A DNA stretch of 64,000 bases from Deroplatys truncata (taxonomy: Eukaryota > Arthropoda > Insecta > Mantodea > Mantidae), in assembly GCA_030765065.1 (NCBI GenBank), contig CM060990.1:217907290-217971289 (forward strand). Direction: 5' to 3'. Shown one piece after another: positions 1-59,476 of the stretch. The first letter of the stretch is position 1. Each line of letters opens with the position of its first letter. The notes beneath the pieces were generated by a model. The model searched no databases. It saw only the letters and a program-made list of their open reading frames with translations, and was not told where the DNA came from. The position numbers and the translations under genes are program-made.

Positions 1-109
1 ACCAAAGGGAAAAAGGTGAGCCATAAAGGGAAAAAGGTGACCTGCAACGGGAAAAGCTAACCCACTCACACTAACAGATAAGTAATTCAGTTAGTGTTGC
101 AAGAGGTTG
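1..109. repeat. Left-arm outer short tandem repeats (~22 bp)
   Basis: Short units with the core AAAGGGAAAAAGGTGA are repeated at the window edge. They mirror 16664-16772 in the right arm, where related units continue past the mirrored part to about 16825. The window cuts the left array. Confidence 0.7.
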
Positions 110-1290
110 ACTGCATCGTAGCAGTGTATGATTTCACAGGTAATTCAGCTAGTTTCGTATGTGTTTAGGCTAATTCAGCAAGTATCACAAGAGGATAGAT
201 TCTAGGGTTGGGTATAGCTTAGTGTCGTATTTCACAGGTAATTCAGAGAGTATCGTAGGTATTTAGGTTAATTCAAGTATCGCAGACGTTTAGAGTAATT
301 CAGCTAGCATTACAGGAGGGTAGGTTCCAGGGGTTGGTTATAACATAGCTTCGTATTTCACAGATAGTTCGGGTAATATCGTAAGTATTTGAGGTAATCG
401 ACATAGCTTCACAGATATTATTGATAATTTCGATCAGAGATTTGTATCACAGCTATTTAAGGTAAATGCAGGTGATTCAGGTTGTATCAATGGTATTTGA
501 GTCATTTTAACACGTAATTCATCTAGTATCATTGGTATCTAAGGCAAACTAGATAGTATCACAGGTGCTCGTGCTAATTTAGAGCAGGAATTCGTATCAG
601 AGCTAGTTGAGGTAATTTCACATGATTCGGGTAGTATCACAGGTATTTAAGTCATTTTCACAGGCAATTCAGCTAGTATCGTAGGTATTTAGGCTAATTC
701 ATCTAGTATCACAGGAGACTAGATTCCAGAGGCTAAATGCATCATAGCTATGCATGATTTCACAGGTAATTCAGCTAGTATCGTAGGTATTTAGGCTAAT
801 TCAGCTAGTATCTCAGGAGGCTAGATTCCAGGGTTGGGTATAGCATAGTTTCGTATTTCACAGGTAATTCAGAGGGTATCGTAGGTATTTAGGATAATTC
901 AAGTAACATAGGTGTTTAGAGTAATTAAGCAAGCATTACAGGAGGGTAGGTTCCAGGGGTTGGTATAGTTTGGTATTTTACAGATAGTTCAGGTAATATC
1001 GTAAGTATTTGGGTAAACAGCATAGTTTCACAGATGCTCGTAATAATTTCGATCAGAGATTTGTATCACAGCTATTTAAGGTAAATGCAGGTGATTCAGG
1101 TTGTATCATAGGAGTTTAGAGTAACTCAGCTAGTATCACAGGAGGCTAGATTCAATGATCAGGGTTTCGTATCAGAGCTATTTAATGTAATTTCACTTGA
1201 TTCGAGTAGTATCACAGGTATTCAAGTCATTTCAACAGGCAATTCAACTAGTATCACAGGTACTCATGGTAATATAGAGAGTAATTAAAT
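110..1290. repeat. Left-arm minisatellite array with higher-order repeat
   Basis: The array is built from degenerate 30-40 bp units with cores such as AATTCAGCTAGTATCGTAGG and TATTTAGGCTAATTCAG. A higher-order unit of about 626 bp occurs twice: the block starting near 113 returns near 739 with the same order of variants. It mirrors 15483-16663. No gene is visible. It lies outside the polymerase gene, where terminal or subterminal repeats of the arm would be expected. Confidence 0.75.
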
Positions 1291-1441
1291 TATAAAACAT
1301 TTCTCATCCAACGTTACAACAATTTATATACTTTTTTCTAAATCTTACAAACTTATTATATGTTAAACAGTTATTGTACGATGCGGAGAGGGATAAACTG
1401 CATATTGGTTCACAAAATGAAAAGCTTTACGTCAACATACC

Positions 1442-1447
1442 TTTATT
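1442..1447 (-). terminator. Poly(A) signal AATAAA downstream of left-arm polymerase
   Basis: AATAAA reads on the minus strand about 200 bases after the last polymerase stop. It is the mirror of 15326-15331. Placement fits transcript end formation, but it is a short motif in AT-rich DNA. Confidence 0.4.
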
Positions 1448-1650
1448 TTAGTTCGTTGTAGATGTCTCTCCCCTTTTATCTAGGCTTGAGACTAGCACTA
1501 GGATTGCTCCTAATGGCAGGGTTACCACCTTCCCTTCCATCTTCTTCTTTCTTCATCAGGCGTCAGCTATCTGCATATACAGCACACAAATAACCTTCTT
1601 TTTAAGATTGTAGACTCACGAGAAAATCTTTATCTTTAACTTACATTCTT

Positions 1651-1905
1651 TTAAGCACTGTTTGTAATGGCGTAATGTCCATACGCATATGTCGTTATCC
1701 CGTCCTCGGCAATAATTCTTTTATCATCAAACGGAGTCAATGCAATTTTATTCACTTGCACTGTAGCAAGAGCATGCTTTCGTGATAGGATCAGATTCAT
1801 AGGTGTTCTGATGATTTCACTGGTTTTAAGACAGTCTGTATAGCTGTCAAACGAAATGTACTGCTTAATAGCGTTACGTTTTATACCTTTAATCTTTTTT
1901 ATCAT
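1651..1905 (-). CDS. DNA polymerase B, C-terminal segment (left arm)
   Basis: These 84 codons encode the C-terminal tail of the polymerase that starts at 5303. The segment has the KGIKR and INKIALTPFDDKRII-like features (here VNKIALTPFDDKRI) and the ending EDGITTYAYG, which close this polymerase family in animals. It overlaps the end of the preceding segment (1889-3574) by 17 bases in another frame. It is therefore the continuation of one interrupted protein, not a separate gene. The ATG at 1905 is not expected to be a natural start. The predicted sequence matches the right-arm copy at 14868-15122. Confidence 0.75.
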   Translation of the reverse strand: MIKKIKGIKRNAIKQYISFDSYTDCLKTSEIIRTPMNLILSRKHALATVQVNKIALTPFDDKRIIAEDGITTYAYGHYAITNSA

Positions 1906-3574
1906 TGACCCTTTGAATATCTAAGGCATACATCTTAGGACGTAGTCCAACAAAGCGTAGGATGATTTTGCTATTAGCCTCATCTTTAAATTTTCCCAAT
2001 ACCTTCTTGTTCTGAGTAGAGTAACATATATGGTTGACAGGGTAATCAGCTGTATCGAGATGCTCAAGAAAACGTAGCTTATCCTGGTACACATCTTCAG
2101 TTGTTACACGATGAATGAACGAATCAGTGTCCATATACATAAGCTTCAGGTTTTCAGCTCCATAATAAGGCAACAAAACGTCGTAATGATAGTTATACAT
2201 TAATGTCTTGGAGATATCCAACACACTCATACCAATGTATATAGGCTTGTTGAATACAATCTGACGAGAGGCCATATGTACAGCAGCTAGATTATCAGCA
2301 TATATCGTCCTGTCGATAAACGTAGGCTTGGCGATCAGCTTCTCTAGAGTTTTTTCATTGGTCACCAGCCGTATATCCATACGGTTACGCAGGTTCTCCA
2401 TAGTTTTTCCAAACATAGCGTTGTTAAAGAGCTTGTAGAGATCCTTCTCGAAATCATTTGCAGCTTGTTGTCGTAGCCTGTTGTTAAATTCTACATAAGG
2501 TTTCAACCACTGAGACTGTCGGAATTGTAGCACACGATGGATGTTTGTTAGTCGTAGTCCATGACTAAGAGCTTGCTTCAAAGCCATGTAATGCACTACA
2601 TACTTCTTTCGAGGTCCAAGATGAGGTATCAGTTTCTTTGTAGATGATTCCAATGGTTTCATACACTCTGGCAGGAAAGGTAGATCGTTGTGTAGATCGT
2701 GAAGTTCAGCAGGATACTCGATGTCGACTTCTAATATGTACCCATGAGGATCATCTTCTTGTAGTGTTTCCAAGTTGATTTCTTCAGGTGACATCCACTG
2801 AAACCCACCAAAAGGAAGGGCGTGACACATTGCCCACCCATATTGGTTATTAGCGTCCTCGTATGTGATAAATTGGGTTGGTCTCGACGGATCAAACTTA
2901 TCCATATAAGTGTTATTAGCCTCAGCATACCGATGGGAAACTTGGCATAAACCTCCTCTTATACCTGATTCCACCATGAGTAGTTGATCATAATCTTGTA
3001 ACAGCTCCAGCTTAATTCCAGTATACAGTAACATGGCGTCCCATGTAAGACCTGGAGAGGTAAAATAATGGGCAGGATCAACTTTGCGTGTTTTAAGGGT
3101 TTGCTCTCTGAACGTCTCAAAGACGTCAGCTAGGAGAAGTACATCCGAAGTTAAGTAGAGATCGCTGTACTCTCCCAGGTTTCTCACATTAAACAGCTCC
3201 CATACATTTCTAGCATGATCGTAGTCAGTATCAGTAATTTCTTCTTCATTTAATCTATTGTAGAAGTAGTCCTTAGGAGGCAAGCAGGTCTCGTTCAGGA
3301 CATCCCATGACGTAACAAAATCATATGGAAATACACCCTTACGGGTCATCAACTTCAATTTGTCTTCTCCAAAGTACTTTAGCGTTTCAGGATACGAGGT
3401 TAGATTTTTTACTAACTTATCCAAGCTTGTACTGAGGAATCGGAAGCTATCCACAAATCGAAGCTTTATATCTCCTACATACTTGGTGAATGAGATATAG
3501 CTTTCTTCAGAGTTAGGAATTACCTCCACACGTTCACTTGTACAACCCAGCTCCTTAACAATGAAATGAGTCAT
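1889..3574 (-). CDS. DNA polymerase B, exonuclease III and palm segment (left arm)
   Basis: These 561 codons hold the second half of the exonuclease domain and the polymerase domain. Visible motifs are Exo III (YLTSDVLLLADVFE, about residues 140-153), motif A (DANNQYG, D240), motif B (KLFNNAMFGKTMEN, K381) and motif C (YMDTDS, D482 and D484). All metal-binding acids of the palm are kept. It overlaps the upstream frame (3555-5303) by 20 bases, and the Exo II motif is cut at that point. The ATG at 3574 is thus inside the ancestral reading frame. Polymerases of this type copy linear DNA from a protein primer. The translation looks identical to the right-arm copy at 13199-14884. Confidence 0.85.
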   Translation of the reverse strand: MTHFIVKELGCTSERVEVIPNSEESYISFTKYVGDIKLRFVDSFRFLSTSLDKLVKNLTSYPETLKYFGEDKLKLMTRKGVFPYDFVTSWDVLNETCLPPKDYFYNRLNEEEITDTDYDHARNVWELFNVRNLGEYSDLYLTSDVLLLADVFETFREQTLKTRKVDPAHYFTSPGLTWDAMLLYTGIKLELLQDYDQLLMVESGIRGGLCQVSHRYAEANNTYMDKFDPSRPTQFITYEDANNQYGWAMCHALPFGGFQWMSPEEINLETLQEDDPHGYILEVDIEYPAELHDLHNDLPFLPECMKPLESSTKKLIPHLGPRKKYVVHYMALKQALSHGLRLTNIHRVLQFRQSQWLKPYVEFNNRLRQQAANDFEKDLYKLFNNAMFGKTMENLRNRMDIRLVTNEKTLEKLIAKPTFIDRTIYADNLAAVHMASRQIVFNKPIYIGMSVLDISKTLMYNYHYDVLLPYYGAENLKLMYMDTDSFIHRVTTEDVYQDKLRFLEHLDTADYPVNHICYSTQNKKVLGKFKDEANSKIILRFVGLRPKMYALDIQRVNDKKD

Positions 3575-5303
3575 ATCCGCTAAGGTTATGCATGAAGACT
3601 GGTATATATTTAGGTGTTTTACAGGCTAAATTACATTCATTATGAAGACTTCCACGATATTCACCGCTGATGTGATCATGGTCGCGTACTTTGTAGTTTT
3701 CTCCTGTAAAGCCTTTTCCACACAAGTAGCATGCCGTAGAAGACTCAAAATCCTTTTGCTGTTGTTCCGTAAGTTTCAGAGGCTTAGTAGATTTGTATAT
3801 GTCATCAATCATTTTTGCAAGAGATGTCAGGTACAGCATAAACTTCTGAGCAGCATCAGCACCACGATACACATAGGGTTGCTTAGGAACACCAGTTTCG
3901 AGATGTTCAACACTGGATGTAGGCTTCACGTAAACACAGAAGCTCATTGGTGTGTGCTCTTGATAAGGGGTTGTATAGGAAGTTTCAGGATTGGGTATAC
4001 ACGTATGGCATGGAGCGAGAATACTCTCAAAATCAGCATAGATGACATAAGGTACTTTCAGCATCCTCTCAACATTTTTAAACTGAACAATTGATTTCTC
4101 CTTGGTAGGCATAACTACCCTCGCAACACCATGTTGAATACAGACGGCTACATGTTCTTGCAGTTTTTCCTGTCCACTTAGTCCATATCGATCATCAAAA
4201 TGTGTAAAGCAGCGCTTACAAGTATAAACCCGTCCATTATGGCTAGTTTTCTGGCGTCGAACGAGTTTCTCAAAATTCTTTATATATACGTAGTGATGTT
4301 TTCCACTACTATCATTCAATAGTAGCAGATCGCGATGTTCAGGTAGTTCAATATCAACAACCTTTATCGGATACACTTCATGCTTCTCATCCAGCCCGAA
4401 AACGTTAATAGATATCTCGTTAAACTTCTCAAATGTTGGTATTTGAGAAAGTGGAGTAGGGTAGGAAACACAGCTGAAGTCGTACTTATCTTGAAGTTGT
4501 TTGTATTTGTTCACACGCTGTGCATCCTTCCCTATGAATTTAGCTAATATAGAGTACATGAAACATTTCTCGTCGGTAAAGTTCTGAATGTTTATACATG
4601 CTTTCCTTGCTTCAACAGATGACGGTAGTGGTATGTAGCTACTTCCTCGTAACGGGTTGTACTTGTTGATACGAAGTCGAACTCCTTCCACAGCAAGCAA
4701 AGCCCAGCTGCTACCCTTAAGCTGAGACTCCTCCATTTCAGTCACCAATTTCTTGAATTTCGCTTCCAGTGTTGAGTCCAGATCTGTTTCTAGGAAAACA
4801 GGATGATTCCTTGTTTTAAATGTTTTGTCACAGGTTTCTCCAATACTGTTAACAAATCGACACTCAGCCAGCAGATTAATTTTAACACTCTTATGAATGC
4901 TAAGCTCTTTATGCACAGCCTGGATTATACGTTGTTTTGCCTCTTGCAGATACATATTCAGGTCCTTAGGTGACTCGCATCGTAGAAAATACGATTTTAA
5001 TCGTCCTTCGAATGAAGTTTCGTATTCTTTCATATCACAGTACTCCAGTGTTGACAGTAACTGATGTTTAGTTGGCTCCAATCTTCTTTTCTTCTGAGGG
5101 CTGCTTATTTCACATATATCTTCGTGTCGCTGCCCCTTATAACCATCTTTGAAGGTTACATTACAATGTTTACATTTGAAGAGCTTCTTGCAGCTCATCT
5201 CGTGTCTTCTCTTGTCATAACCTCGGAGGAACTTCTTCCCACATTTTCCGCATGCATATCCAGTAGCGCTTGGAATAATATCCTTATACGCTGAGTTATT
5301 CAT
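3555..5303 (-). CDS. DNA polymerase B, N-terminal zinc-finger and exonuclease segment (left arm)
   Basis: These 582 codons begin at the natural start, just after two promoter repeats. Two N-terminal CCHC fingers are visible (C18, C21, H34, C38 and C44, C47, H60, C64), with a basic stretch KKRRLEP after them. A further C-x2-C finger follows in the middle. Exo I reads YADFES (D424, E426). A Cys/His cluster resembling recombination endonuclease VII (C525, C528, DHDH at 541-544) comes next, as is usual in this animal-genome polymerase group. The frame ends in the Exo II motif HNLSGYD (572-578), after which the reading continues in another frame at 3574. The full protein would be about 1220 residues, close to known animal Polinton-type polymerases. 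Confidence 0.85.
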   Translation of the reverse strand: MNNSAYKDIIPSATGYACGKCGKKFLRGYDKRRHEMSCKKLFKCKHCNVTFKDGYKGQRHEDICEISSPQKKRRLEPTKHQLLSTLEYCDMKEYETSFEGRLKSYFLRCESPKDLNMYLQEAKQRIIQAVHKELSIHKSVKINLLAECRFVNSIGETCDKTFKTRNHPVFLETDLDSTLEAKFKKLVTEMEESQLKGSSWALLAVEGVRLRINKYNPLRGSSYIPLPSSVEARKACINIQNFTDEKCFMYSILAKFIGKDAQRVNKYKQLQDKYDFSCVSYPTPLSQIPTFEKFNEISINVFGLDEKHEVYPIKVVDIELPEHRDLLLLNDSSGKHHYVYIKNFEKLVRRQKTSHNGRVYTCKRCFTHFDDRYGLSGQEKLQEHVAVCIQHGVARVVMPTKEKSIVQFKNVERMLKVPYVIYADFESILAPCHTCIPNPETSYTTPYQEHTPMSFCVYVKPTSSVEHLETGVPKQPYVYRGADAAQKFMLYLTSLAKMIDDIYKSTKPLKLTEQQQKDFESSTACYLCGKGFTGENYKVRDHDHISGEYRGSLHNECNLACKTPKYIPVFMHNLSGYDSFHC

Positions 5304-5317
5304 CTTTATTCTTGATG

Positions 5318-5676
5318 TAATAACGTATTAATCACTGATCAATGAAATGTAGACCTCTTCACCTTGATATCACTTAGAAAGCTGATTATTTTCTGAGAGA
5401 ACAGCGATGTTAACACCTCAGAGATGATCAACAGAATGAATTTCAATGCTAGAGGATGCTCTATTTATAGAGGAAGCACGAACCTTTATGCATCAATTAT
5501 ATAATGTATTAACCCTTCTTCAAGGAAATGTACTCTTCTTCACATTGATAACACTTTAGATTATTTTCTGAGAGAACAGCGATGTTAACACCTCAGAGAT
5601 GATCAACAGAATGAATTTCAATACTCAAGTTCGCTCTATTTATAGAGAAAGCACGAAACTTTTTTAATCAATTATA
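5318..5676 (-). promoter_or_regulatory. Duplicated polymerase promoter unit (left arm)
   Basis: Two direct repeats of about 180 bp lie immediately upstream of the polymerase start at 5303. Each has a perfect TATAAATAG box on the minus strand (5461-5469 and 5636-5644), followed by a conserved stretch containing TTGATCATCTCTGAGG. The copies differ by scattered substitutions. It is the mirror of 11097-11455, with a base difference at 5410/11363. Two tandem core promoters for one gene is an inference from the motifs. Confidence 0.65.
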
Positions 5677-5912
5677 TCCTGATTATTAATACTAAAAACG
5701 GTGATGAAGCGTGTAAGCTCTTATATATTTCAATTCGTGTTACACTGATGTTCGAGCGTCTCCGTATAGCTTCGTATGTTTAGAGAGAAAGTGTAAAGTA
5801 TTGTGAAAATGTTATGTATTGTTCGGCTATAATCGTACAGATTCGGAAAGCTTGACTGGTGAAGGTGATGAACGATCCGTCGACCGAGCAGGAGGCAAGC
5901 ATTCCCTTCGCG
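5677..5912. other. Spacer between promoter unit and ~150-bp repeats (left arm)
   Basis: No gene is supported here. A base difference from the right arm lies at 5697 (mirror 11076). Confidence 0.4.
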
Positions 5913-6510
5913 CAACGAAACCTAGATGCAAAAGAAAGAAAATCGTGTTAGATGAGAAACCACCCAGACATTCGCCTGCAGACCATGGAAAACCATGAAA
6001 AAATATGTCAGAGTGAGCGTCCAACGGAACTCGAACCAGGGACTCTAAAAGCACACGTGAAAGATACAAATTATATAGAATAAAAGGAAATCGGTGACGA
6101 TGAGAAACCACTCCAGCATTCGCCTGCAGACCAGGGGAAACCATGAAAAAAATCAAAGGGCTGAGCGACTGACGGATAGAGTGTGCGACCCGACAGGGAA
6201 ATCAAACAAAAGGTCTCTAGAGACAAAAAAAAAGATGCAATTGAAATGGAATCATGATAGCAAATGCCACTACAGCATTAGGCAGCAGACCAGCGAAAAT
6301 CGTGAGAAACGTAAGGTCAGAGTAAACAATCAATGGAAATCTAACCCCTGAACCCTAGAAATTCAAGTGAAAAAATACAAATAAAATGGTTTGAAAGGGA
6401 TTCGTGATAGCAAATACCGCTACTGCATTAGGCGGCAGACCGGCGAAAATCGCGAGAAACGTAAGGTCAGAGTGCTCGTCCCTACGGGAATCGAATCCGA
6501 GACATCTCGA
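5913..6510. repeat. Four ~150-bp tandem repeats with T-arm-like motif (left arm)
   Basis: This is the mirror of 10263-10860, where the units are easier to read. Each unit carries GGTCTGC(A/C)G-type and TTTCTCA-type blocks and a sequence resembling a tRNA T-arm/B-box (for example GGTTCGAGTTCC in right-arm orientation), followed by GACGCTCACTCTGAC-like sequence. No A box or full tRNA fold was seen, so these are not called tRNAs. Short frames crossing the array arise from the repeats. Confidence 0.65.
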
Positions 6511-6719
6511 ATGTAAAGTGATGCCGTTATTGACTGAACAAAACAGTAAAAACAGACCTCATTAGCAGCCGTCATGCTTAAGCACGTTAACTTTCACCAT
6601 ATGACGTCACAGTCTGGGACAGTTTGACTGTCGCTACCATGTCGGGACATGCATATTTTAGACATCTCATATTTTAGAGTCATATACAGAAGTTTCATAC
6701 CAACGTACTCACTACGCTC

Positions 6720-7600
6720 GCAAAGATAATCTAAAATTTCATCGTTTAAATACTTTGGAAATAGTGTAGAAGTTTTTCAGCCCTTATTTAATTAAAATTC
6801 ATGTATATACCCTATTATTTAGTGATTTTTTCAATAATTTCTTCCTCTCATTCGTCAAAAATCAGTGTACAATACGCATTTTTATACGTTTTAATGTTCG
6901 TTTATTTTTAAAACCGCTGCATTTGTCCGTAATTACGAGCAATAATTTTTTTTCAGATTTACTCAGATGTGTAGCTTGTAGAATCGAATTAGGAAATGTT
7001 TTAATAAATGTATTGTATTTTTTAGGTTAAAGTATCTACATTTTGAAAGCTGCCAGGACCGTTATTTGTATTTAGTATAAAGATTGTTATATTTTCATTT
7101 TTAAGACTTCCTTTGTTAAAGATAATGTCTTGCAATGTATTTTTAAATTTCTTTTGCAAAGATAATCTAAAATTTCATCGTTGAAATACTTTGGAAATAG
7201 TGTAGAAGTTTTTCCACCCTTATTTAATTAAATTCATGTATATACCCTATTATTTAGTGATTTTTTTCAATAATTTCTCCCTCTCATGTCCATCATTCGT
7301 CAAAAAATCAGTGCACAATACGCATTTTTATACGTTTTAATGTTCGTTTATTTTTAAAACCGCTGCATTTGCCCGTAATTACGAGCAATAATTTTTTTCA
7401 GATTTACTCAGATGTATAGCTTGTAGAATCGAATTAGGCAATGTTTTAATAAATGTATTGTATTTTTTTAGCTTAAAGCATCTAAATTTTAAAGCTGCCA
7501 TGACCGTTATTTGTATTTAGTATAAAGATTGTTATATTTTCATTTTTAAGTCTTCCTTTGTTAAAGACAATGTCTTGCAATCTATTTTTAAATTTCTTTT
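6720..7600. repeat. Tandem duplication present only in the left arm
   Basis: The block starting GCAAAGATAATC at 6720 starts again at 7156 and runs to about 7600, with scattered substitutions and small indels. The right arm has a single copy (about 9620-10053). This accounts for the 446-base change in pairing offset between outer and inner arms. AT-rich, no gene. Confidence 0.85.
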
Positions 7601-8293
7601 AAAACCAAAGCGACCGTTAACAACTATAATGGCTGTCTTCATGTATCGAAAAGCTAACATGACCGCTTCAGTCATCTTTTAGAAGCGTGCCTTACATGTA
7701 GGTAAGGAAGGGAAGCATCAGCTAGCGGAGAGGAGAAGGCTTGCGAAAGGCGGCTGAGGGGCGGTACCTGGAGGGTGTAAGGTAGGGATGAAAGACCGGC
7801 TTCATGAGGCGCTGAGAGCTACACGAGACCGTCAGTACGGCATGGCACGCCGTAAGGGTCGGACCTAATACAGTGTCGAGCTTATACAGCTGCAGAGCGC
7901 GTCAGCGTTTTACGTAATCTAGTTATTTACGCCCACTATACCATTTAAATATACATTCATCTAAGAGATATAATATTCGTAAGGATGACAGATGTCCAAA
8001 TATACATAACAAAGAAATTAGTTACTGATATAAATGTAATATCGTACGTTCACCATTTTATTTTTAATTACTTTTTTTATTTTATTCGAGGATGAATTTG
8101 TATTCACGTCACTGGACTCAATCCTAGTCCTCCAACCCGACTTGGAACAGCAATCAATAACGAGCTACAATCCAAGGATATAATCGGTAATAATAAAAAA
8201 TTTTTTATTAACACCGTCAAATAAAAAGCTCTGTAAACGTATGTATTTCCCCTCACTTCCCCTCTTCCCCCACCCCACAGTAGATAATATATA
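7601..8293. other. Left inner arm, non-coding
   Basis: Mirror of 8926-9618. It contains a GC-richer stretch (about 7680-7900) and an AT-rich stretch. No convincing coding frame. An element with the T-arm-like sequence GGATTGAATCC (minus strand, near 8130) resembles the motif in the ~150-bp repeats. Confidence 0.6.
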
Positions 8294-8926
8294 CCGATTC
8301 TGGCGCACAGAGAGATGCCGAAAAACTTATAAGCTTCTTTGTTCTATGCCGACAAGCCCCGCCCCCTCCCTTTGAGGACTCACATGCCGCCCTGGTCGCA
8401 CGTGCCACTAGCCCCGCCCCCTCCCCCATGTGGTCTGGTCACGTGCTGACGGCCACCCCTCCCCCATCCCTTCCCTTGTGACCTCACCCTTAAAAGCTAC
8501 TGGACACCCGATCCCCCTACCCCATCCTTTCTAATCCTATCCCGTACACTGGGCACGCCCTCTCTTTGCTCTACTGCCAGGCCCTCTAGAGGGGGTGTAA
8601 CCACTTCCCCTCTTTGTAGCCTGACCTAATGCTGGTCTCGGTATTGGAGAACAATGGGCTATTGTTCAAATCGCCTAAGCCAGCGTTAGAGTAGAGCAGA
8701 GAGGAGGGGGCATCGTGGTCCAGTAGATATTACGTGTGAAACCAAAAAGGTTAAGTGTTTTCACGTGTGCTATTCTTTCACCGCAAATCAGAGACACAGG
8801 ACAATGCATTATTGTTCTCATCGTAAATGGCGGTGTCGGAATAGCAAAAAGCGGGGGTGGGAGTCGGCGGCATAGAAGAAAGGAATTTATCAGTGGTCGA
8901 CATCGGCTTTGAAGCTGCGTGTCGCT
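8294..8926. repeat. Imperfect palindromic centre of the element
   Basis: The two arms keep matching inside the centre, but only in blocks. Left 8323-8370 (TTCTATGCCG block) matches right 8850-8900 in inverse orientation. TGCTCTACT near 8567 matches AGTAGAGCA near 8691, and the very middle is GAACAAT (8649-8655) against ATTGTTC (8661-8667). The left half has extra sequence, including a perfect 12-bp palindrome CCCTCTAGAGGG near 8582. The middle is rich in C on the left and G on the right. No coding frame is credible. This is what an incompletely paired hairpin end, opened and copied into a dimer, would look like. Decay after integration is the alternative. Confidence 0.65.
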
Positions 8927-9619
8927 ATATATTATCTACTGTGGGGTGGGGGAAGAGGGGAATTGAGGGGAAATACATACGTTTACAGAGCTTTTTATTT
9001 GACGGTGTTAATAAAATTTTTTTTATTATTACCGATTATATCCTTGGATTGTAACTCGTTATTGATTGCTGTTCCAAGTCGGGTTGGAGGACTAGGATTG
9101 AATCCAGTGACGTGAATACAAATTCATCCTCGAATAAAATAAAAAAAGTAATTAAAAATAAAATGGTGAACGTACGATATTACATTTATATCAGTAACTA
9201 ATTTCTTTGTTATGTATATTTGGACATCTGTCATCCTTACGAATATTATATCTCTTAGATGAATGTATATTTAAATGGTATAGTGGGCGTAAATAACTAG
9301 ATTACGTAAAACGCTGACGCGCTCTGCAGCTGTATAAGCTCGACACTGTATTAGGTCCGACCCTTACGGCGTGCCATGCCGTACTGACGGTCTCGTGTAG
9401 CTCTCAGCGCCTCATGAAGCCGGTCTTTCATCCCTACCTTACACCCTCCAGGTACCGCCCCTCAGCCGCCTTTCGCAAGCCTTCTCCTCTCCGCTAGCTG
9501 ATGCTTCCCTTCCTTACCTACATGTAAGGCACGCTTCTAAAAGATGACTGAAGCGGTCATGTTAGCTTTTCGATACATGAAGACAGCCATTATAGTTGTT
9601 AACGGTCGCTTTGGTTTTA
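8927..9619. other. Right inner arm, non-coding
   Basis: Inverse copy of the left inner arm (offset 17219). No credible gene. Confidence 0.6.
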
Positions 9620-10262
9620 AAATAAATTTAAAAATAGATTGCAAGACATTGTCTTTAACAAAGGAAGACTTAAAAATGAAAATATAACAATCTTTATACT
9701 AAATACAAATAACGGTCATGGCAGCTTTAAAATGTAGATGCTTTAAGCTAAAAAAATACAATACATTTATTAAAACATTTCCTAATTCGATTCTACAAGC
9801 TACACATCTGAGTAAATCTGAAAAAAAATTATTGCTCGTAATTACGGACAAATGCAGCGGTTTTAAAAATAAACGAACATTAAAACGTATAAAAATGCGT
9901 ATTGTACACTGATTTTTGACGAATGAGAGGAAGAAATTATTGAAAAAATCACTAAATAATAGGGTATATACATGAATTTTAATTAAATAAGGGCTGAAAA
10001 ACTTCTACACTATTTCCAAAGTATTTAAACGATGAAATTTTAGATTATCTTTGCGAGCGTAGTGAGTACGTTGGTATGAAACTTCTGTATATGACTCTAA
10101 AATATGAGATGTCTAAAATATGCATGTCCCGACATGGTAGCGACAGTCAAACTGTCCCAGACTGTGACGTCATATGGTGAAAGTTAACGTGCTTAAGCAT
10201 GACGGCTGCTAATGAGGTCTGTTTTTACTGTTTTGTTCAGTCAATAACGGCATCACTTTACA
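9620..10262. other. Right-arm single copy of the block duplicated on the left
   Basis: Corresponds to one unit of the left-arm tandem duplication, followed by the spacer up to the ~150-bp repeats. AT-rich. A 64-codon frame at 9718-9912 is not supported by any recognisable feature. Confidence 0.6.
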
Positions 10263-10860
10263 TTCGAGATGTCTCGGATTCGATTCCCGTAGGGACGAGC
10301 ACTCTGACCTTACGTTTCTCGCGATTTTCGCCGGTCTGCCGCCTAATGCAGTAGCGGTATTTGCTATCACGAATCCCTTTCAAACCATTTTATTTGTATT
10401 TTTTCACTTGAATTTCTAGGGTTCAGGGGTTAGATTTCCATTGATTGTTTACTCTGACCTTACGTTTCTCACGATTTTCGCTGGTCTGCTGCCTAATGCT
10501 GTAGTGGCATTTGCTATCATGATTCCATTTCAATTGCATCTTTTTTTTGTCTCTAGAGACCTTTTGTTTGATTTCCCTGTCGGGTCGCACACTCTATCCG
10601 TCAGTCGCTCAGCCCTTTGATTTTTTTCATGGTTTCCCCTGGTCTGCAGGCGAATGCTGGAGTGGTTTCTCATCGTCACCGATTTCCTTTTATTCTATAT
10701 AATTTGTATCTTTCACGTGTGCTTTTAGAGTCCCTGGTTCGAGTTCCGTTGGACGCTCACTCTGACATATTTTTTCATGGTTTTCCATGGTCTGCAGGCG
10801 AATGTCTGGGTGGTTTCTCATCTAACACGATTTTCTTTCTTTTGCATCTAGGTTTCGTTG
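10263..10860. repeat. Four ~150-bp tandem repeats with T-arm-like motif (right arm)
   Basis: Four units begin near 10275, 10421, 10562 and 10734. Each starts with a B-box-like core (GGATTCGATTCC, GGTTAGATTTCC, GTTTGATTTCC, GGTTCGAGTTCC). Each then has a CACTCTGAC-like block, a GGTCTGC block, an AATGC(T/A)G(T/G)AG block and a pyrimidine-rich end. No promoter A box or acceptor stem was found. Possible roles (replication origin, packaging or Pol III binding) are speculation. Confidence 0.65.
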
Positions 10861-11096
10861 CGCGAAGGGAATGCTTGCCTCCTGCTCGGTCGACGGATCG
10901 TTCATCACCTTCACCAGTCAAGCTTTCCGAATCTGTACGATTATAGCCGAACAATACATAACATTTTCACAATACTTTACACTTTCTCTCTAAACATACG
11001 AAGCTATACGGAGACGCTCGAACATCAGTGTAACACGAATTGAAATATATAAGAGCTTACACGCTTCATCACCGTGTTTAGTATTAATAATCAGGA
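10861..11096. other. Spacer between ~150-bp repeats and promoter unit (right arm)
   Basis: Inverse copy of 5677-5912. No gene is supported. Confidence 0.4.
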
Positions 11097-11455
11097 TATA
11101 ATTGATTAAAAAAGTTTCGTGCTTTCTCTATAAATAGAGCGAACTTGAGTATTGAAATTCATTCTGTTGATCATCTCTGAGGTGTTAACATCGCTGTTCT
11201 CTCAGAAAATAATCTAAAGTGTTATCAATGTGAAGAAGAGTACATTTCCTTGAAGAAGGGTTAATACATTATATAATTGATGCATAAAGGTTCGTGCTTC
11301 CTCTATAAATAGAGCATCCTCTAGCATTGAAATTCATTCTGTTGATCATCTCTGAGGTGTTATCATCGCTGTTCTCTCAGAAAATAATCAGCTTTCTAAG
11401 TGATATCAAGGTGAAGAGGTCTACATTTCATTGATCAGTGATTAATACGTTATTA
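11097..11455 (+). promoter_or_regulatory. Duplicated polymerase promoter unit (right arm)
   Basis: Two ~180-bp direct repeats (about 11097-11271 and 11273-11455) end right before the polymerase ATG at 11470. TATAAATAG boxes lie at 11129-11137 and 11304-11312. Transcripts would start about 30 bases downstream of each, giving leaders of roughly 310 and 135 bases. Confidence 0.65.
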
Positions 11456-11469
11456 CATCAAGAATAAAG

Positions 11470-13218
11470 ATGAATAACTCAGCGTATAAGGATATTATTC
11501 CAAGCGCTACTGGATATGCATGCGGAAAATGTGGGAAGAAGTTCCTCCGAGGTTATGACAAGAGAAGACACGAGATGAGCTGCAAGAAGCTCTTCAAATG
11601 TAAACATTGTAATGTAACCTTCAAAGATGGTTATAAGGGGCAGCGACACGAAGATATATGTGAAATAAGCAGCCCTCAGAAGAAAAGAAGATTGGAGCCA
11701 ACTAAACATCAGTTACTGTCAACACTGGAGTACTGTGATATGAAAGAATACGAAACTTCATTCGAAGGACGATTAAAATCGTATTTTCTACGATGCGAGT
11801 CACCTAAGGACCTGAATATGTATCTGCAAGAGGCAAAACAACGTATAATCCAGGCTGTGCATAAAGAGCTTAGCATTCATAAGAGTGTTAAAATTAATCT
11901 GCTGGCTGAGTGTCGATTTGTTAACAGTATTGGAGAAACCTGTGACAAAACATTTAAAACAAGGAATCATCCTGTTTTCCTAGAAACAGATCTGGACTCA
12001 ACACTGGAAGCGAAATTCAAGAAATTGGTGACTGAAATGGAGGAGTCTCAGCTTAAGGGTAGCAGCTGGGCTTTGCTTGCTGTGGAAGGAGTTCGACTTC
12101 GTATCAACAAGTACAACCCGTTACGAGGAAGTAGCTACATACCACTACCGTCATCTGTTGAAGCAAGGAAAGCATGTATAAACATTCAGAACTTTACCGA
12201 CGAGAAATGTTTCATGTACTCTATATTAGCTAAATTCATAGGGAAGGATGCACAGCGTGTGAACAAATACAAACAACTTCAAGATAAGTACGACTTCAGC
12301 TGTGTTTCCTACCCTACTCCACTTTCTCAAATACCAACATTTGAGAAGTTTAACGAGATATCTATTAACGTTTTCGGGCTGGATGAGAAGCATGAAGTGT
12401 ATCCGATAAAGGTTGTTGATATTGAACTACCTGAACATCGCGATCTGCTACTATTGAATGATAGTAGTGGAAAACATCACTACGTATATATAAAGAATTT
12501 TGAGAAACTCGTTCGACGCCAGAAAACTAGCCATAATGGACGGGTTTATACTTGTAAGCGCTGCTTTACACATTTTGATGATCGATATGGACTAAGTGGA
12601 CAGGAAAAACTGCAAGAACATGTAGCCGTCTGTATTCAACATGGTGTTGCGAGGGTAGTTATGCCTACCAAGGAGAAATCAATTGTTCAGTTTAAAAATG
12701 TTGAGAGGATGCTGAAAGTACCTTATGTCATCTATGCTGATTTTGAGAGTATTCTCGCTCCATGCCATACGTGTATACCCAATCCTGAAACTTCCTATAC
12801 AACCCCTTATCAAGAGCACACACCAATGAGCTTCTGTGTTTACGTGAAGCCTACATCCAGTGTTGAACATCTCGAAACTGGTGTTCCTAAGCAACCCTAT
12901 GTGTATCGTGGTGCTGATGCTGCTCAGAAGTTTATGCTGTACCTGACATCTCTTGCAAAAATGATTGATGACATATACAAATCTACTAAGCCTCTGAAAC
13001 TTACGGAACAACAGCAAAAGGATTTTGAGTCTTCTACGGCATGCTACTTGTGTGGAAAAGGCTTTACAGGAGAAAACTACAAAGTACGCGACCATGATCA
13101 CATCAGCGGTGAATATCGTGGAAGTCTTCATAATGAATGTAATTTAGCCTGTAAAACACCTAAATATATACCAGTCTTCATGCATAACCTTAGCGGATAT
13201 GACTCATTTCATTGTTAA
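11470..13218 (+). CDS. DNA polymerase B, N-terminal zinc-finger and exonuclease segment (right arm)
   Basis: This is the right-arm twin of 3555-5303, with the same 582-codon translation. The start ATG at 11470 lies 15 bases after the promoter repeats. It carries the two CCHC fingers, Exo I DxE, the endonuclease VII-like Cys/His cluster and the first half of Exo II. The frame stops at 13218, shortly after GYD. The continuing frame opens at 13199, so ribosomes would need to move +1 (or -2) near 13200 to read on. No classical slippery site is present. A lost CA dinucleotide is a simple explanation. Confidence 0.85.
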   Translation: MNNSAYKDIIPSATGYACGKCGKKFLRGYDKRRHEMSCKKLFKCKHCNVTFKDGYKGQRHEDICEISSPQKKRRLEPTKHQLLSTLEYCDMKEYETSFEGRLKSYFLRCESPKDLNMYLQEAKQRIIQAVHKELSIHKSVKINLLAECRFVNSIGETCDKTFKTRNHPVFLETDLDSTLEAKFKKLVTEMEESQLKGSSWALLAVEGVRLRINKYNPLRGSSYIPLPSSVEARKACINIQNFTDEKCFMYSILAKFIGKDAQRVNKYKQLQDKYDFSCVSYPTPLSQIPTFEKFNEISINVFGLDEKHEVYPIKVVDIELPEHRDLLLLNDSSGKHHYVYIKNFEKLVRRQKTSHNGRVYTCKRCFTHFDDRYGLSGQEKLQEHVAVCIQHGVARVVMPTKEKSIVQFKNVERMLKVPYVIYADFESILAPCHTCIPNPETSYTTPYQEHTPMSFCVYVKPTSSVEHLETGVPKQPYVYRGADAAQKFMLYLTSLAKMIDDIYKSTKPLKLTEQQQKDFESSTACYLCGKGFTGENYKVRDHDHISGEYRGSLHNECNLACKTPKYIPVFMHNLSGYDSFHC

Positions 13219-14884
13219 GGAGCTGGGTTGTACAAGTGAACGTGTGGAGGTAATTCCTAACTCTGAAGAAAGCTATATCTCATTCACCAAGTATGTAGGA
13301 GATATAAAGCTTCGATTTGTGGATAGCTTCCGATTCCTCAGTACAAGCTTGGATAAGTTAGTAAAAAATCTAACCTCGTATCCTGAAACGCTAAAGTACT
13401 TTGGAGAAGACAAATTGAAGTTGATGACCCGTAAGGGTGTATTTCCATATGATTTTGTTACGTCATGGGATGTCCTGAACGAGACCTGCTTGCCTCCTAA
13501 GGACTACTTCTACAATAGATTAAATGAAGAAGAAATTACTGATACTGACTACGATCATGCTAGAAATGTATGGGAGCTGTTTAATGTGAGAAACCTGGGA
13601 GAGTACAGCGATCTCTACTTAACTTCGGATGTACTTCTCCTAGCTGACGTCTTTGAGACGTTCAGAGAGCAAACCCTTAAAACACGCAAAGTTGATCCTG
13701 CCCATTATTTTACCTCTCCAGGTCTTACATGGGACGCCATGTTACTGTATACTGGAATTAAGCTGGAGCTGTTACAAGATTATGATCAACTACTCATGGT
13801 GGAATCAGGTATAAGAGGAGGTTTATGCCAAGTTTCCCATCGGTATGCTGAGGCTAATAACACTTATATGGATAAGTTTGATCCGTCGAGACCAACCCAA
13901 TTTATCACATACGAGGACGCTAATAACCAATATGGGTGGGCAATGTGTCACGCCCTTCCTTTTGGTGGGTTTCAGTGGATGTCACCTGAAGAAATCAACT
14001 TGGAAACACTACAAGAAGATGATCCTCATGGGTACATATTAGAAGTCGACATCGAGTATCCTGCTGAACTTCACGATCTACACAACGATCTACCTTTCCT
14101 GCCAGAGTGTATGAAACCATTGGAATCATCTACAAAGAAACTGATACCTCATCTTGGACCTCGAAAGAAGTATGTAGTGCATTACATGGCTTTGAAGCAA
14201 GCTCTTAGTCATGGACTACGACTAACAAACATCCATCGTGTGCTACAATTCCGACAGTCTCAGTGGTTGAAACCTTATGTAGAATTTAACAACAGGCTAC
14301 GACAACAAGCTGCAAATGATTTCGAGAAGGATCTCTACAAGCTCTTTAACAACGCTATGTTTGGAAAAACTATGGAGAACCTGCGTAACCGTATGGATAT
14401 ACGGCTGGTGACCAATGAAAAAACTCTAGAGAAGCTGATCGCCAAGCCTACGTTTATCGACAGGACGATATATGCTGATAATCTAGCTGCTGTACATATG
14501 GCCTCTCGTCAGATTGTATTCAACAAGCCTATATACATTGGTATGAGTGTGTTGGATATCTCCAAGACATTAATGTATAACTATCATTACGACGTTTTGT
14601 TACCTTATTATGGAGCTGAAAACCTGAAGCTTATGTATATGGACACTGATTCGTTCATTCATCGTGTAACAACTGAAGATGTGTACCAGGATAAGCTACG
14701 TTTTCTTGAGCATCTCGATACAGCTGATTACCCTGTCAACCATATATGTTACTCTACTCAGAACAAGAAGGTATTGGGAAAATTTAAAGATGAGGCTAAT
14801 AGCAAAATCATCCTACGCTTTGTTGGACTACGTCCTAAGATGTATGCCTTAGATATTCAAAGGGTCAATGATAAAAAAGATTAA
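13199..14884 (+). CDS. DNA polymerase B, exonuclease III and palm segment (right arm)
   Basis: This is the twin of 1889-3574, with 561 codons. It contains Exo III and palm motifs A, B and C with every catalytic acid kept. The region between motifs A and B is where protein-primed polymerases carry their terminal-protein-binding insertions; I did not delimit these. The frame ends in a lysine-rich stretch, and the last polymerase segment starts in a third frame at 14868. A run of six A lies at the junction. The absence of stops over 561 codons argues that the frameshifts are recent. Confidence 0.85.
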   Translation: MTHFIVKELGCTSERVEVIPNSEESYISFTKYVGDIKLRFVDSFRFLSTSLDKLVKNLTSYPETLKYFGEDKLKLMTRKGVFPYDFVTSWDVLNETCLPPKDYFYNRLNEEEITDTDYDHARNVWELFNVRNLGEYSDLYLTSDVLLLADVFETFREQTLKTRKVDPAHYFTSPGLTWDAMLLYTGIKLELLQDYDQLLMVESGIRGGLCQVSHRYAEANNTYMDKFDPSRPTQFITYEDANNQYGWAMCHALPFGGFQWMSPEEINLETLQEDDPHGYILEVDIEYPAELHDLHNDLPFLPECMKPLESSTKKLIPHLGPRKKYVVHYMALKQALSHGLRLTNIHRVLQFRQSQWLKPYVEFNNRLRQQAANDFEKDLYKLFNNAMFGKTMENLRNRMDIRLVTNEKTLEKLIAKPTFIDRTIYADNLAAVHMASRQIVFNKPIYIGMSVLDISKTLMYNYHYDVLLPYYGAENLKLMYMDTDSFIHRVTTEDVYQDKLRFLEHLDTADYPVNHICYSTQNKKVLGKFKDEANSKIILRFVGLRPKMYALDIQRVNDKKD

Positions 14885-15122
14885 AGGTATAAAACGTAAC
14901 GCTATTAAGCAGTACATTTCGTTTGACAGCTATACAGACTGTCTTAAAACCAGTGAAATCATCAGAACACCTATGAATCTGATCCTATCACGAAAGCATG
15001 CTCTTGCTACAGTGCAAGTGAATAAAATTGCATTGACTCCGTTTGATGATAAAAGAATTATTGCCGAGGACGGGATAACGACATATGCGTATGGACATTA
15101 CGCCATTACAAACAGTGCTTAA
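14868..15122 (+). CDS. DNA polymerase B, C-terminal segment (right arm)
   Basis: This is the twin of 1651-1905, with 84 codons of C-terminal tail in the third frame. It overlaps the previous segment by 17 bases. Together the three segments give one polymerase of about 1220 residues, interrupted twice. A poly(A) signal follows at 15326. Confidence 0.75.
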   Translation: MIKKIKGIKRNAIKQYISFDSYTDCLKTSEIIRTPMNLILSRKHALATVQVNKIALTPFDDKRIIAEDGITTYAYGHYAITNSA

Positions 15123-15482
15123 AAGAATGTAAGTTAAAGATAAAGATTTTCTCGTGAGTCTACAATCTTAAAAAGAAGGTTATTTGTGTGCTGTATATGC
15201 AGATAGCTGACGCCTGATGAAGAAAGAAGAAGATGGAAGGGAAGGTGGTAACCCTGCCATTAGGAGCAATCCTAGTGCTAGTCTCAAGCCTAGATAAAAG
15301 GGGAGAGACATCTACAACGAACTAAAATAAAGGTATGTTGACGTAAAGCTTTTCATTTTGTGAACCAATATGCAGTTTATCCCTCTCCGCATCGTACAAT
15401 AACTGTTTAACATATAATAAGTTTGTAAGATTTAGAAAAAAGTATATAAATTGTTGTAACGTTGGATGAGAAATGTTTTATA
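15123..15482. other. 3' flank of right-arm polymerase
   Basis: A 26-codon frame starting with MKKEED near 15219 has no recognisable features and is not called. The stretch otherwise holds only the poly(A) signal. Confidence 0.4.
15326..15331 (+). terminator. Poly(A) signal AATAAA downstream of right-arm polymerase
   Basis: AATAAA lies about 200 bases after the last polymerase stop, mirrored at 1442-1447 in the left arm. Confidence 0.4.
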
Positions 15483-16663
15483 ATTTAATTACTCTCTATA
15501 TTACCATGAGTACCTGTGATACTAGTTGAATTGCCTGTTGAAATGACTTGAATACCTGTGATACTACTCGAATCAAGTGAAATTACATTAAATAGCTCTG
15601 ATACGAAACCCTGATCATTGAATCTAGCCTCCTGTGATACTAGCTGAGTTACTCTAAACTCCTATGATACAACCTGAATCACCTGCATTTACCTTAAATA
15701 GCTGTGATACAAATCTCTGATCGAAATTATTACGAGCATCTGTGAAACTATGCTGTTTACCCAAATACTTACGATATTACCTGAACTATCTGTAAAATAC
15801 CAAACTATACCAACCCCTGGAACCTACCCTCCTGTAATGCTTGCTTAATTACTCTAAACACCTATGTTACTTGAATTATCCTAAATACCTACGATACCCT
15901 CTGAATTACCTGTGAAATACGAAACTATGCTATACCCAACCCTGGAATCTAGCCTCCTGAGATACTAGCTGAATTAGCCTAAATACCTACGATACTAGCT
16001 GAATTACCTGTGAAATCATGTATAGCTATGATGCATTTAGCCTCTGGAATCTAGTCTCCTGTGATACTAGATGAATTAGCCTAAATACCTACGATACTAG
16101 CTGAATTGCCTGTGAAAATGACTTAAATACCTGTGATACTACCCGAATCATGTGAAATTACCTCAACTAGCTCTGATACGAATTCCTGCTCTAAATTAGC
16201 ACGAGCACCTGTGATACTATCTAGTTTGCCTTAGATACCAATGATACTAGATGAATTACGTGTTAAAATGACTCAAATACCATTGATACAACCTGAATCA
16301 CCTGCATTTACCTTAAATAGCTGTGATACAAATCTCTGATCGAAATTATCAATAATATCTGTGAAGCTATGTCGATTACCTCAAATACTTACGATATTAC
16401 CCGAACTATCTGTGAAATACGAAGCTATGTTATAACCAACCCCTGGAACCTACCCTCCTGTAATGCTAGCTGAATTACTCTAAACGTCTGCGATACTTGA
16501 ATTAACCTAAATACCTACGATACTCTCTGAATTACCTGTGAAATACGACACTAAGCTATACCCAACCCTAGAATCTATCCTCTTGTGATACTTGCTGAAT
16601 TAGCCTAAACACATACGAAACTAGCTGAATTACCTGTGAAATCATACACTGCTACGATGCAGT
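15483..16663. repeat. Right-arm minisatellite array with higher-order repeat
   Basis: Inverse copy of 110-1290. In this orientation the units read TACCTACGATACTAGCTGAA and similar. The same two-fold higher-order unit of about 626 bp is present. No gene. Confidence 0.75.
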
Positions 16664-16829
16664 CAACCTCTTGCAACACTAACTGAATTACTTATCTGTT
16701 AGTGTGAGTGGGTTAGCTTTTCCCGTTGCAGGTCACCTTTTTCCCTTTATGGCTCACCTTTTTCCCTTTGGTGGTCACCTTTTTCCCTGAACGAGTCACC
16801 TCTTCCCTGAATAGGTTACGTGATGGGCA
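16664..16829. repeat. Right-arm outer short tandem repeats (~22 bp)
   Basis: Units of GTCACCTTTTTCCCT type are repeated about four to five times between 16731 and 16825. The last ones (from 16773) lie beyond the part that can be compared with the left arm in this window. Confidence 0.65.
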
Positions 16830-17860
16830 TGTCTAGAACATTGACATGAAACAGTTTTCCACTAAGTTCACGTCTAAAGCCGCTTTCAAGTCTAGCACCT
16901 CCTATTCCCTATCTCTCCTGTATATAAGTCCATATTCCTACTGCTACACTACCTGTCTAGCCGAACACCTCTCCTCCTGTTCCTATACCTCTCATATAAA
17001 CCATACTCTACTCCTCTAGCTCTGTCTAGCCTAACGCCTCTCTCGTTTACCTATGACTCTCACATAAACCATACTCTGCTCCTCAACCTCTGTCTAGTCT
17101 AACTCCTCTCCTCGTTTTCCTATACCTCTCATATAAACTATACTCTACTCCTCAACCTCTGTCTAGCCTAGCACCCCTCTTCCTGTTCCTATGCTTCTCA
17201 TACATATAAACCATGCCCTACGTTTCAAGCCCTGTCTAGTCTAACACCACTCCCCGTATCCCCTACCTCTCAAAAGCTCATTCCCTCCTGCCCCCCCTCT
17301 AGCTGAGTATCACTCCTTGGTTTCCTATCTAACCTAACTTTAACACCTGTCTATCCTAGCATAGGATCTCTCTCCGTTTTCTCGTCTCTCCTTATAAACA
17401 CAAACTCAATTCTCCTAACCTAATAACTCTCCTCGTTTTCCTATACTTCACATATAAACCATACTCTACTCCTCGACTTCTGTCTAGCCTAACACCTTTC
17501 CTCGTTTTCCTATATCTCTCATATAAACCATGCACTACGTTTCAAGCCCTGTCTAGTCTAACACCTCTCATCGTTTTCCTATACCGCTCATATAAACCAT
17601 ACATTACTCAGCCTCTGTCTAGCCTAGCACCTCTCCACGTATTCCCTATCTGTCTCATATGAAGCGCACTCCCCCTCCTACCACTGTCTAGCCTAGCGTC
17701 AGTCCTCGTATTCCCTATCTCCCCCATATAAACGCATTTTCCTCCTTGAACCGTCGCATCTAGCCTCGTTTTCCCTATCCTTTCCCATATAAACGCAAAA
17801 AACTGCGCCAGCTCTCTCCTATATATCCTACTAGCGTCTCCTTTCTGTCATTATGTAGTC
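16830..17860. repeat. ~75-bp minisatellite next to the right arm
   Basis: About a dozen degenerate units contain CATATAAACCATACTCTACT, TGTCTAGCCTAACACCTCTC and CGTTTTCCTATACCTCTC. It directly follows the palindrome as seen here, so it may be part of the element's end, with its partner upstream of the window. No gene. Confidence 0.7.
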
Positions 17861-33090: not shown

Positions 33091-33386
33091 ACAAAATATC
33101 CTAACCGTACCTTCACTGTATATGTTCGACTATTGTTTACCAAAGTTGAAAAGGAATAATTTAACATTCTCGATAAAGACTGTCGTACAGCCTAAGACAA
33201 AATAAATGAGAACAGCCAGAGGAGTTCGATTTGGGAAACATCAGAAGCATTTGCTGATACTGCATTCATAGTATAAGATTTAATACTACCCTGCATTAAT
33301 TTTACAGCTATGCAATAAGTAGGAAGATGCCTTTCAGTTTGATTGTATACTTAGTAGTTGAGTGGTGAAGCGCCTGATTCTAGTTA

Positions 33387-33742
33387 ATTACAAAATAATT
33401 ACTACACCAACACAATATCTGGCTGAAGGGAGAGGAAAGGAACTCTACACTATCATAATTAAAACTGCAAGAGAATGGATAGCTGGTAGATTTATTATAA
33501 AAAGATTTCTTACCCCATGTGTCTGCCGGGCGAGGACGCCATGTCTTAGGCAGTTGCCCGTCTGACTCACTCGAAGCCTACTCACAGAATGACACAGAAG
33601 CCACGCTAACACCCCAAGCGTCAGTAACGCCATATCCCTTCCAATGACACTGTTTCCCCTGAATCGCCCCTACTCACGGACAAACTGCCGTGCTTCGGTA
33701 TCCAGAGAGCGTCTTAACAAGACTATCTGTGCACATGCCACA
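33387..33742 (-). repeat. LTR (downstream copy on minus strand)
   Basis: Direct repeat of 37087-37442, offset 3700. It contains GC-rich and palindromic short motifs but no coding capacity. The frame seen within it (33445-33633) recurs unchanged in the other LTR and is non-coding. Confidence 0.85.
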
Positions 33743-37086: not shown

Positions 37087-37442
37087 ATTACAAAATAATT
37101 ACTACACCAACACAATATCTGGCTGAAGGGAGAGGAAAGGAACTCTACACTATCATAATTAAAACTGCAAGAGAATGGATAGCTGGTAGATTTATTATAA
37201 AAAGATTTCTTACCCCATGTGTCTGCCGGGCGAGGACGCCATGTCTTAGGCAGTTGCCCGTCTGACTCACTCGAAGCCTACTCACAGAATGACACAGAAG
37301 CCACGCTAACACCCCAAGCGTCAGTAACGCCATATCCCTTCCAATGACACTGTTTCCCCTGAATCGCCCCTACTCACGGACAAACTGCCGTACTTCGGTA
37401 TCCAGAGAGCGTCTTAACAAGACTATCTGTGCACATGCCACA
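37087..37442 (-). repeat. LTR (upstream copy on minus strand)
   Basis: Direct repeat of 33387-33742. On the minus strand this would be the promoter-bearing LTR. Confidence 0.85.
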
Positions 37443-37899
37443 ATATGTTTTGTTTAAATTTTAATTTGTTGAATATATAGCAATGCCATATGTTTTCCAT
37501 GCATAACATAACTATTAATTTTAAGACATCCGTGCATAAATACCCACACATTACTCTTAGTTTTTAAAATAAATGCCATATTAGTAAGAATTCTAAAGTG
37601 AAAAACTAAATCAAATGTTTGACTTCACATTGGCTGTACAAACACTCATTCTTCAGTTATGAATGGTGCTGGCATGATAATGCACACCCACCTCATAACC
37701 TTGGAGTTCTGCATGATATGTTAGCAATCATACTGACTTTTGCTATGGCTGAGCGCGCACATAAAGATGAAACCACAAGTTAAGCTCTCCTTATGTTAGT
37801 GAACGTTGCTGGATACTTGGGCTGCAAGATAACTTGAAGTCCTTATATCTATGGCTACAAGCTGGGCATGGTTATCCAGGGAAGGGATTGTTTGCCATT

Positions 37900-56997: not shown

Positions 56998-57089
56998 TTA
57001 TATTAGGTACTTTATATTTGCAGCTTCTAATTGCTGCCATCACCCCTTTACCTTTTGCCAATGCAAACTTCTTTTGTTTCTCCCATTTA

Positions 57090-57956: not shown

Positions 57957-58051
57957 TCTCCCTGTTTCATTACACCACTCCTTAAGAAACTCTGTTGGGA
58001 TGCCATCAATTCCAGTAGCTTTATTTTTCTTCAGTAACTTAACTGGTTTTA

Positions 58052-59396: not shown

Positions 59397-59476
59397 CAGT
59401 GTTTCAAAACTCCCACATATAACTTATTTTTTAAACCCTCACAGTTCCAGAAGCCCAATCTCCTTGCCCCTTTTTC

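Follow-up and report, generated by a model that had tools for sequence, protein, structure and literature searches.

Long inverted repeats that contain tandem arrays are characteristic of foldback elements and long-TIR DNA transposons, and in parvovirus-type hairpin replication a self-priming folded end would yield head-to-head duplexes with identical arms. The hallmarks of Maverick elements, as given in PMC8097293, are AGT..ACT ends and 6-bp target duplications, and the terminal inverted repeats of the intact vertebrate Mavericks described there measure 46–1,447 bp. Bidnaviruses combine a PolB polymerase of Polinton origin with a reduced genome and inverted terminal repeats, which form no parvovirus-type hairpins according to PMC4061559. 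The locus compared here with these systems lies in the mantis Deroplatys truncata, in a window of 64,000 bp (C16:217907290–217971289), i.e., the whole stretch of DNA that was analysed; the genome searched was the assembly of this host (4.29 Gb, 818 contigs). The locus is one copy of a family for which the best reading, with a probability of about 0.6, is a Polinton/Maverick-derived, integrase-less palindromic element that would be copied by fold-back and inserted in trans.

In a comparison of the window with itself, the reverse complement of positions 8920–16772 matches positions 1–8299 with few differences. The giant head-to-head palindrome with a PolB in each arm, which the earlier note had described, is confirmed and is larger than the window shows. 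The leftward extension suggested there was run with 20 kb of left flank, and the arms reach positions −1059 and 17832; this adds 1,060 bases of left arm, both ends, and a target duplication, and the element therefore measures 18,892 bp. The outer end that had been placed at 16772 is an artefact of the window, this position being only the mirror of window base 1. Based on arm alignment with the flanks, the left arm (− strand) covers 1–8299 plus the 1,060 bases beyond the window to −1059, and the right arm (+) runs from 8920 to 17832, the genuine right-hand limit of the element; between them lies an asymmetric core of approximately 620 bp (8300–8919) with residual mirror similarity. The first bases of the element are AGTAGG and the last are CCTACT, and both ends read inward as AGTAGGATATATAGGAGAG. 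The right terminus, CTCTCCTATATATCCTACT, occupies 17814–17832 (+), and its mirror opens the left arm at −1059. Outside each end stands a perfect 6-bp direct repeat, AGCGTC (17833–17838 on the right; −1065 to −1060, outside the window, on the left). An inverted repeat of 8–9 kb at ~99.9% identity is far beyond chance. The differences between the arms are single substitutions, one 1-bp indel, and a copy-number difference of one 445-bp tandem unit; of the substitutions, 8 fall in the 183 bp adjoining the core and 7 in the remaining approximately 8.7 kb, which also hold the indel and the tandem unit.

Repeat searches located a tandem pair of approximately 190 bp per copy directly before PolB (11084–11453, +; mirror 5320–5689), and each copy contains a TATAAATAGAG box, read by eye, that is a possible promoter. 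The 445-bp unit occurs twice in the left arm (6720–7600) and once in the right arm (approximately 9619–10054). A degenerate minisatellite array (15500–16671, +; mirror 102–1273) is followed at 16717–17736 (+) by 21-bp units (16717–16811) and 69-bp units (16953–17272 and 17415–17660), with a degenerate remainder. Elsewhere in the window, a KH-domain exon (Pfam KH_1; 45565–45870, +), which we take by eye to resemble Bicaudal-C, places the element near a host gene. At 56170–59423 (−) lies a decayed non-LTR retrotransposon, its reverse transcriptase and endonuclease domains spread over several frames. Further dispersed repeats were noted near the element, at 33382–33742 and 37081–37442 (99.4%) and, in inverted orientation, at −6551 to −4876 versus 37451–39153 (75.9%).

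Each arm of the window element contains one PolB gene, transcribed outward from the centre. In the right arm, it occupies 11470–15107 (+) in three pieces (approximately 11470–13206, 13202–14878, and 14859–15107), and in the left arm it occupies 1666–5303 (−); homology to relatives spans three frames and thus indicates two frameshifts, the same in both arms. Pfam recognises Endonuclease_7 and DNA_pol_B_2 domains, the latter with an E value of 2.7e-23, and the C-terminal piece was modelled with AlphaFold2 (pLDDT 82), the top PDB match of this model being phi29 DNA polymerase (E 3.8e-13, TM about 0.44). Assignment to the protein-primed type is supported by these predictions, though not proven; the earlier note's protein-primed-type polymerase in each arm is therefore supported as to class, while the window copy itself is broken. 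The best 120 of 5,260 protein matches to the C-terminal piece (E ≤ 0.001; 7,977 candidates scored) show 47–73% identity, and the named ones among them are mostly from arthropods, with many unnamed. The N-terminal piece has 337 protein matches, the highest-scoring one in Nilaparvata lugens (49%). Searches of phage records (tblastn), solved structures (by sequence), NCBIfam, and Rfam, and a search for tRNA genes, gave no finding. A programmed frameshift between the first two frames was considered and rejected, as relatives P0002 and P0004 are uninterrupted in a single frame and other genomic copies have one open frame. In Araneus ventricosus, a PolB gene model (P0014) is fused to a parvovirus-type phospholipase A2 domain.

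The search of the host genome for further copies of the arm, proposed in the same note, returned many copies, more palindromes, and shared ends. The counts of centres, ends, and PolB copies are lower bounds because only the best candidates were scored. For the 986 bp around the window centre, the best 40 of 2,959 candidates match at 85–100%, including the window itself; at least 39 further centres match at 85–97%, one of them over positions 59–986 only. The terminal 143 bp are 100% identical in 40/40 matches (the best 40 of 867 candidates), which upon reading of the list comprise 16 left/right pairs, 15.9–25.2 kb apart, and 8 singles. Twelve end pairs were present among 30 loci fetched, and 11 of these have a perfect 6-bp target duplication and different flanks. 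The twelfth, L054/L055 (C2:168713444–168733139), has mirrored identical host flanks and no target duplication, and is either a palindrome extending past the element or an assembly fold-back. With the C-terminal PolB piece as the query, 78 genomic matches were scored (best of 24,596 candidates); 56 of these form 28 neighbour pairs within 30 kb on many contigs, the window pair included, and all 28 are divergent; in 22 of them, the frames of both arms stay open for 1,200 codons or more. The remaining 22 matches have no partner among the matches listed, and in four elements with long open frames only one of eight end windows, placed by dead reckoning, held a terminus. These two results, as well as the missing target duplication of L054/L055, weaken the best reading.

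A second element, L063/L064 (C5:33192539–33210453), was read as two halves and is likewise a palindrome, with arms that agree at 99.95% over 8,054 bp; through PolB, its identity to the window arm is 93%. Its PolB frame ends early and the homology continues in another frame, indicating one frameshift near the C-terminus in both arms. For the 1,127-aa frame of L064, DNA_pol_B_2 was missing from the Pfam result, although the homologous window piece scores 2.7e-23. When the open pieces of the window and L064 genes are compared separately, dN/dS amounts to 0.28 (578 codons) and 0.21 (531 codons), values that indicate purifying selection on PolB between subfamilies. A palindromic core was found at 6/7 sampled midpoints, with L075 as the exception, and all of a further eight elements, examined at the centre and in the middle of the arm, proved to be palindromes (five with a 1.6-kb end comparison, three with 143-bp end matches only); their 500-bp mid-arm pieces matched at full length and 99.6–100% in six elements, and over 402–428 bp at 100% in two. 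The other copies, other palindromes, common ends, and target duplications support an element rather than a segmental inversion. The host genome also contains other PolB families (L003–L010, open frames of 790–1,281 codons), for which blastn gives no DNA-level similarity to the palindromic arms, and single-copy PolB families with 1,261–1,315 open codons that seem unpaired among the matches listed (best 76 of 11,882).

The gene content of the palindromes was compared with that of two polymerase relatives from IMG/VR. L001, 44% identical in the PolB core, encodes an rve integrase, an A32-type ATPase, and a GIY-YIG protein; L002 is a PolB-bearing viral contig with a gene for a PLA2-like protein. 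The queries came from these two relatives only and comprised their 28 open frames with a length of 80 aa or more. With E values up to 1 allowed, PolB alone has a match in the window element, and it is likewise the sole match in L063/L064 at E up to 0.1; the L001 integrase has no match at these same thresholds, nor do the ATPase and capsid-side genes of the two relatives match either element. Outside the element, the window gives weak matches, down to E 0.002. The long frames of L063/L064 (at least 121 aa) are limited to PolB and one antisense frame. Within the scope of these tests, the two fully read elements bear out the claimed lack of integrase, capsid, and ATPase genes. The idea of a minimal replicon, put forward in the earlier note, fits relatives with long open frames, but insertion needs an integrase that the element apparently does not encode.

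The comparison of arms within and between elements bears on how the palindromes are copied. Over the terminal 1,643 bp, 13 end pairs, including the window, differ between arms by 0, 0, 0, 1, 0, 2, 0, 12, 0, 1, 3, 0, and 1 substitutions, two pairs being also gapped (66 and 54 columns). The arms of 12/13 pairs are therefore separated by 0–3 substitutions per 1.6 kb, compared with a median of 2.8% between elements (312 comparisons), and the nearest or tied neighbour of 25/26 ends is their own partner; the exceptional pair is L049/L050, with 12 substitutions, in which L049 is nearer to other elements. An older set comprised 19 copies of the window subfamily from 20 loci, L028 being excluded because its arms are truncated. 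Their arm pairs are a median of 1.4% apart, compared with 5.4% between copies, 17/19 are sister pairs, and the partner is nearest for 32/38 arms. Since each arm resembles its own partner far more than it resembles other elements, one was probably copied from the other near the time of insertion; in our reading of these alignments, both arms would be made from a single template at the last replication and drift later, as LTRs do. L049/L050, the two older copies that are not sister pairs, and the six arms with another nearest neighbour weaken the best reading. The PolB lesions of the window element (two frameshifts) and of L063/L064 (one) are present in both arms, and thus the arms were equalised after PolB broke; the polymerase presumably came from other copies. 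The window copy probably moved in trans, because its frameshifts in both arms predate the last equalisation.

In the 19 older copies, the arms differ by approximately 1% along their length and by 2.6–3.7% within 100 bp of the core, and nine recent elements show no rise beside the core (0/450 in the first 50 bp). The best reading is weakened by this contrast between the window subfamily, where differences cluster next to the core, and the recent elements, where they do not. Un-recopied stem sequence beside the core was considered but does not hold in general, since the rise in differences is seen in the older window subfamily and is absent from the nine recent elements. In L076/L079 (C4:84.32 Mb), one arm lacks 69 bp beside the core and the arms there are otherwise identical, which is possibly a trace of slipped fold-back. 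The core measures 85–88 bp in recent copies and approximately 620 bp in the window subfamily, and its edges, AACAGTAGA..TCTACTGTT, are present in 9/9 recent elements examined. The recent subfamily has an 87-bp core that is similar to window positions 8300–8375 and, to a lesser degree, to their mirror; the L063 core scores 84 against 8280–8420 and 40 against the mirror side. Mirror similarity within the window core exceeds that of 300 shuffles for 8300–8384 versus 8837–8920 (score 51, best shuffle 33), and an inner mirror (8375–8610 versus 8611–8845) scores 42 against a best shuffle of 32. The core alone folds weakly (z −1.4 to −2.1), the arms folding by construction, and this too counts against the best reading.

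The PolB, the ends, and the target duplication indicate descent from the Polinton group; by the features tested, the family falls outside the Polinton definition, as it lacks the integrase along with other core genes and is filled by its inverted repeats. Candidate helpers reside in the same genome. The A32-type ATPase family has at least 38 matches (best 150 of 1,207 candidates scored), and all six ATPase loci read (L065–L070) also match the PLA2-like frame of L002. The integrase has at least 129 matches (best 129 of 9,144 candidates), many with a 309-aa open frame, and 4/5 of those picked by eye lie 2.6–4.8 kb from an ATPase match. These ATPase, PLA2-like, and integrase genes of Polinton type, with their open frames, are putative sources of the missing functions.

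The proposed mechanism starts from what was observed: the architecture and the common ends, target duplications of 6 bp, a large number of copies, PolB frames that stay open over long stretches in both arms of many of them, and arm coalescence. PolB would quite probably start replication at the AGT..ACT termini and copy the element DNA from there. In each cycle, a strand would bend back at the core so that one arm serves as the template for the other, a fold-back step suggested by the arm coalescence and the conserved centre. Equalisation of the arms at replication is likely; self-priming at the core is a more doubtful component. A new insertion would therefore begin with identical arms, as LTRs do. 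The product would then be inserted in trans, with good probability by the integrase of resident Polinton-type elements. We tentatively extend this to a new kind of integrating replicon, in which a linear half-genome of approximately 9 kb, consisting of an arm and the core, may fold back at its core end to prime the second arm. The chromosomal palindrome would be the self-complementary duplex of this hairpin genome, its arms, born identical, would date the insertion as LTR pairs do, its own PolB would be shared in trans, and the Polinton integrase would be borrowed.

The family may be as described and its arms nevertheless kept alike after insertion by chromosomal gene conversion rather than by copying at replication. 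Long inverted repeats are well known to undergo gene conversion, e.g., in sex-chromosome palindromes, and the core-adjacent excess in the 19 older copies is expected of weak conversion at the edge of homology, as is the excess in the window copy, with 8 substitutions over 183 bp versus 7 over approximately 8.7 kb. However, the outermost ends show no edge effect, and equality at birth fits both the drift of older copies (~1% over the length of the arm) and the identity of recent copies as far as the core; this explanation is considered unlikely. Symmetric defective genomes of adenoviruses arise by snap-back, and such genomes of ordinary Polintons, formed repeatedly and then inserted, would account for the missing genes and the identical arms together, with no propagating palindromic lineage. 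The cores differ between subfamilies and Polinton-type genes are present in the genome, as this origin would have it; yet the asymmetric core is common to the copies within a subfamily, PolB stays constrained between subfamilies, and a non-exhaustive search revealed no Polinton with a single copy of this arm, which makes recurrent snap-back distinctly unlikely.

It is highly improbable that the palindrome is a segmental inversion of the host or a fold-back introduced by the assembly. Polishing with reads of both arms could raise arm identity, and the mirrored host flanks at L054/L055 are those expected of a fold-back; nevertheless, target duplications with different flanks occur at the window element and 11/12 end pairs, the arms show real differences, and the 28 divergent PolB pairs are spread over many contigs. 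A lone inversion or fold-back was set aside on the ends, the target duplications, and these pairs. A palindromic element equalised by fold-back at replication remains the preferred reading.

Compared with the described systems, the family shares with Polinton/Maverick elements, adintoviruses included, the PolB group, AGT..ACT ends, 6-bp target duplications, and a similar total size. In contrast to them, it has two PolB genes and no recognised integrase, ATPase, or other Polinton gene, and inverted repeats of approximately 9 kb fill the element, far from the range of intact vertebrate Mavericks. Bidnaviruses are similar in their reduced content, Polinton-origin PolB, and inverted terminal repeats, but they are viruses with capsid genes and one PolB, and such virion content is unseen in the palindromic element. 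Foldback elements are matched in the long inverted repeats with internal tandem arrays; however, they and long-TIR transposons carry no PolB, and the terminus and target duplication here are of Polinton type. Parvovirus-type hairpin replication, with its identical arms and head-to-head form, serves as a working analogy, although no rolling-hairpin nickase is recognised, the polymerase is of the protein-primed class, and the core folds weakly. Teratorn, a herpesvirus–piggyBac fusion of 41–182 kb, is unrelated in genes and ends. No palindromic PolB element was found in the literature searched, subscription papers mostly and Repbase lying outside its scope, and an earlier description is possible; the accessible parts of PMC8363768, PMC11071308, PMC8097293, PMC2836005, PMC6431247, and PMC4061559 contain none.

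A many-copy family of mirror-image elements with a PolB in each half hints at an undescribed mode of copying mobile DNA. If the reading is correct, a Polinton-type element can lose its integration and virion genes and persist as a multi-copy palindromic polymerase replicon. To our knowledge, DNA transposons usually have no insertion clock; here, the divergence of an arm pair would be an internal clock for each insertion, and the very young copies make the replication forms open to direct test. More speculatively, the palindromic family may explain part of the many PolB gene models of arthropods.
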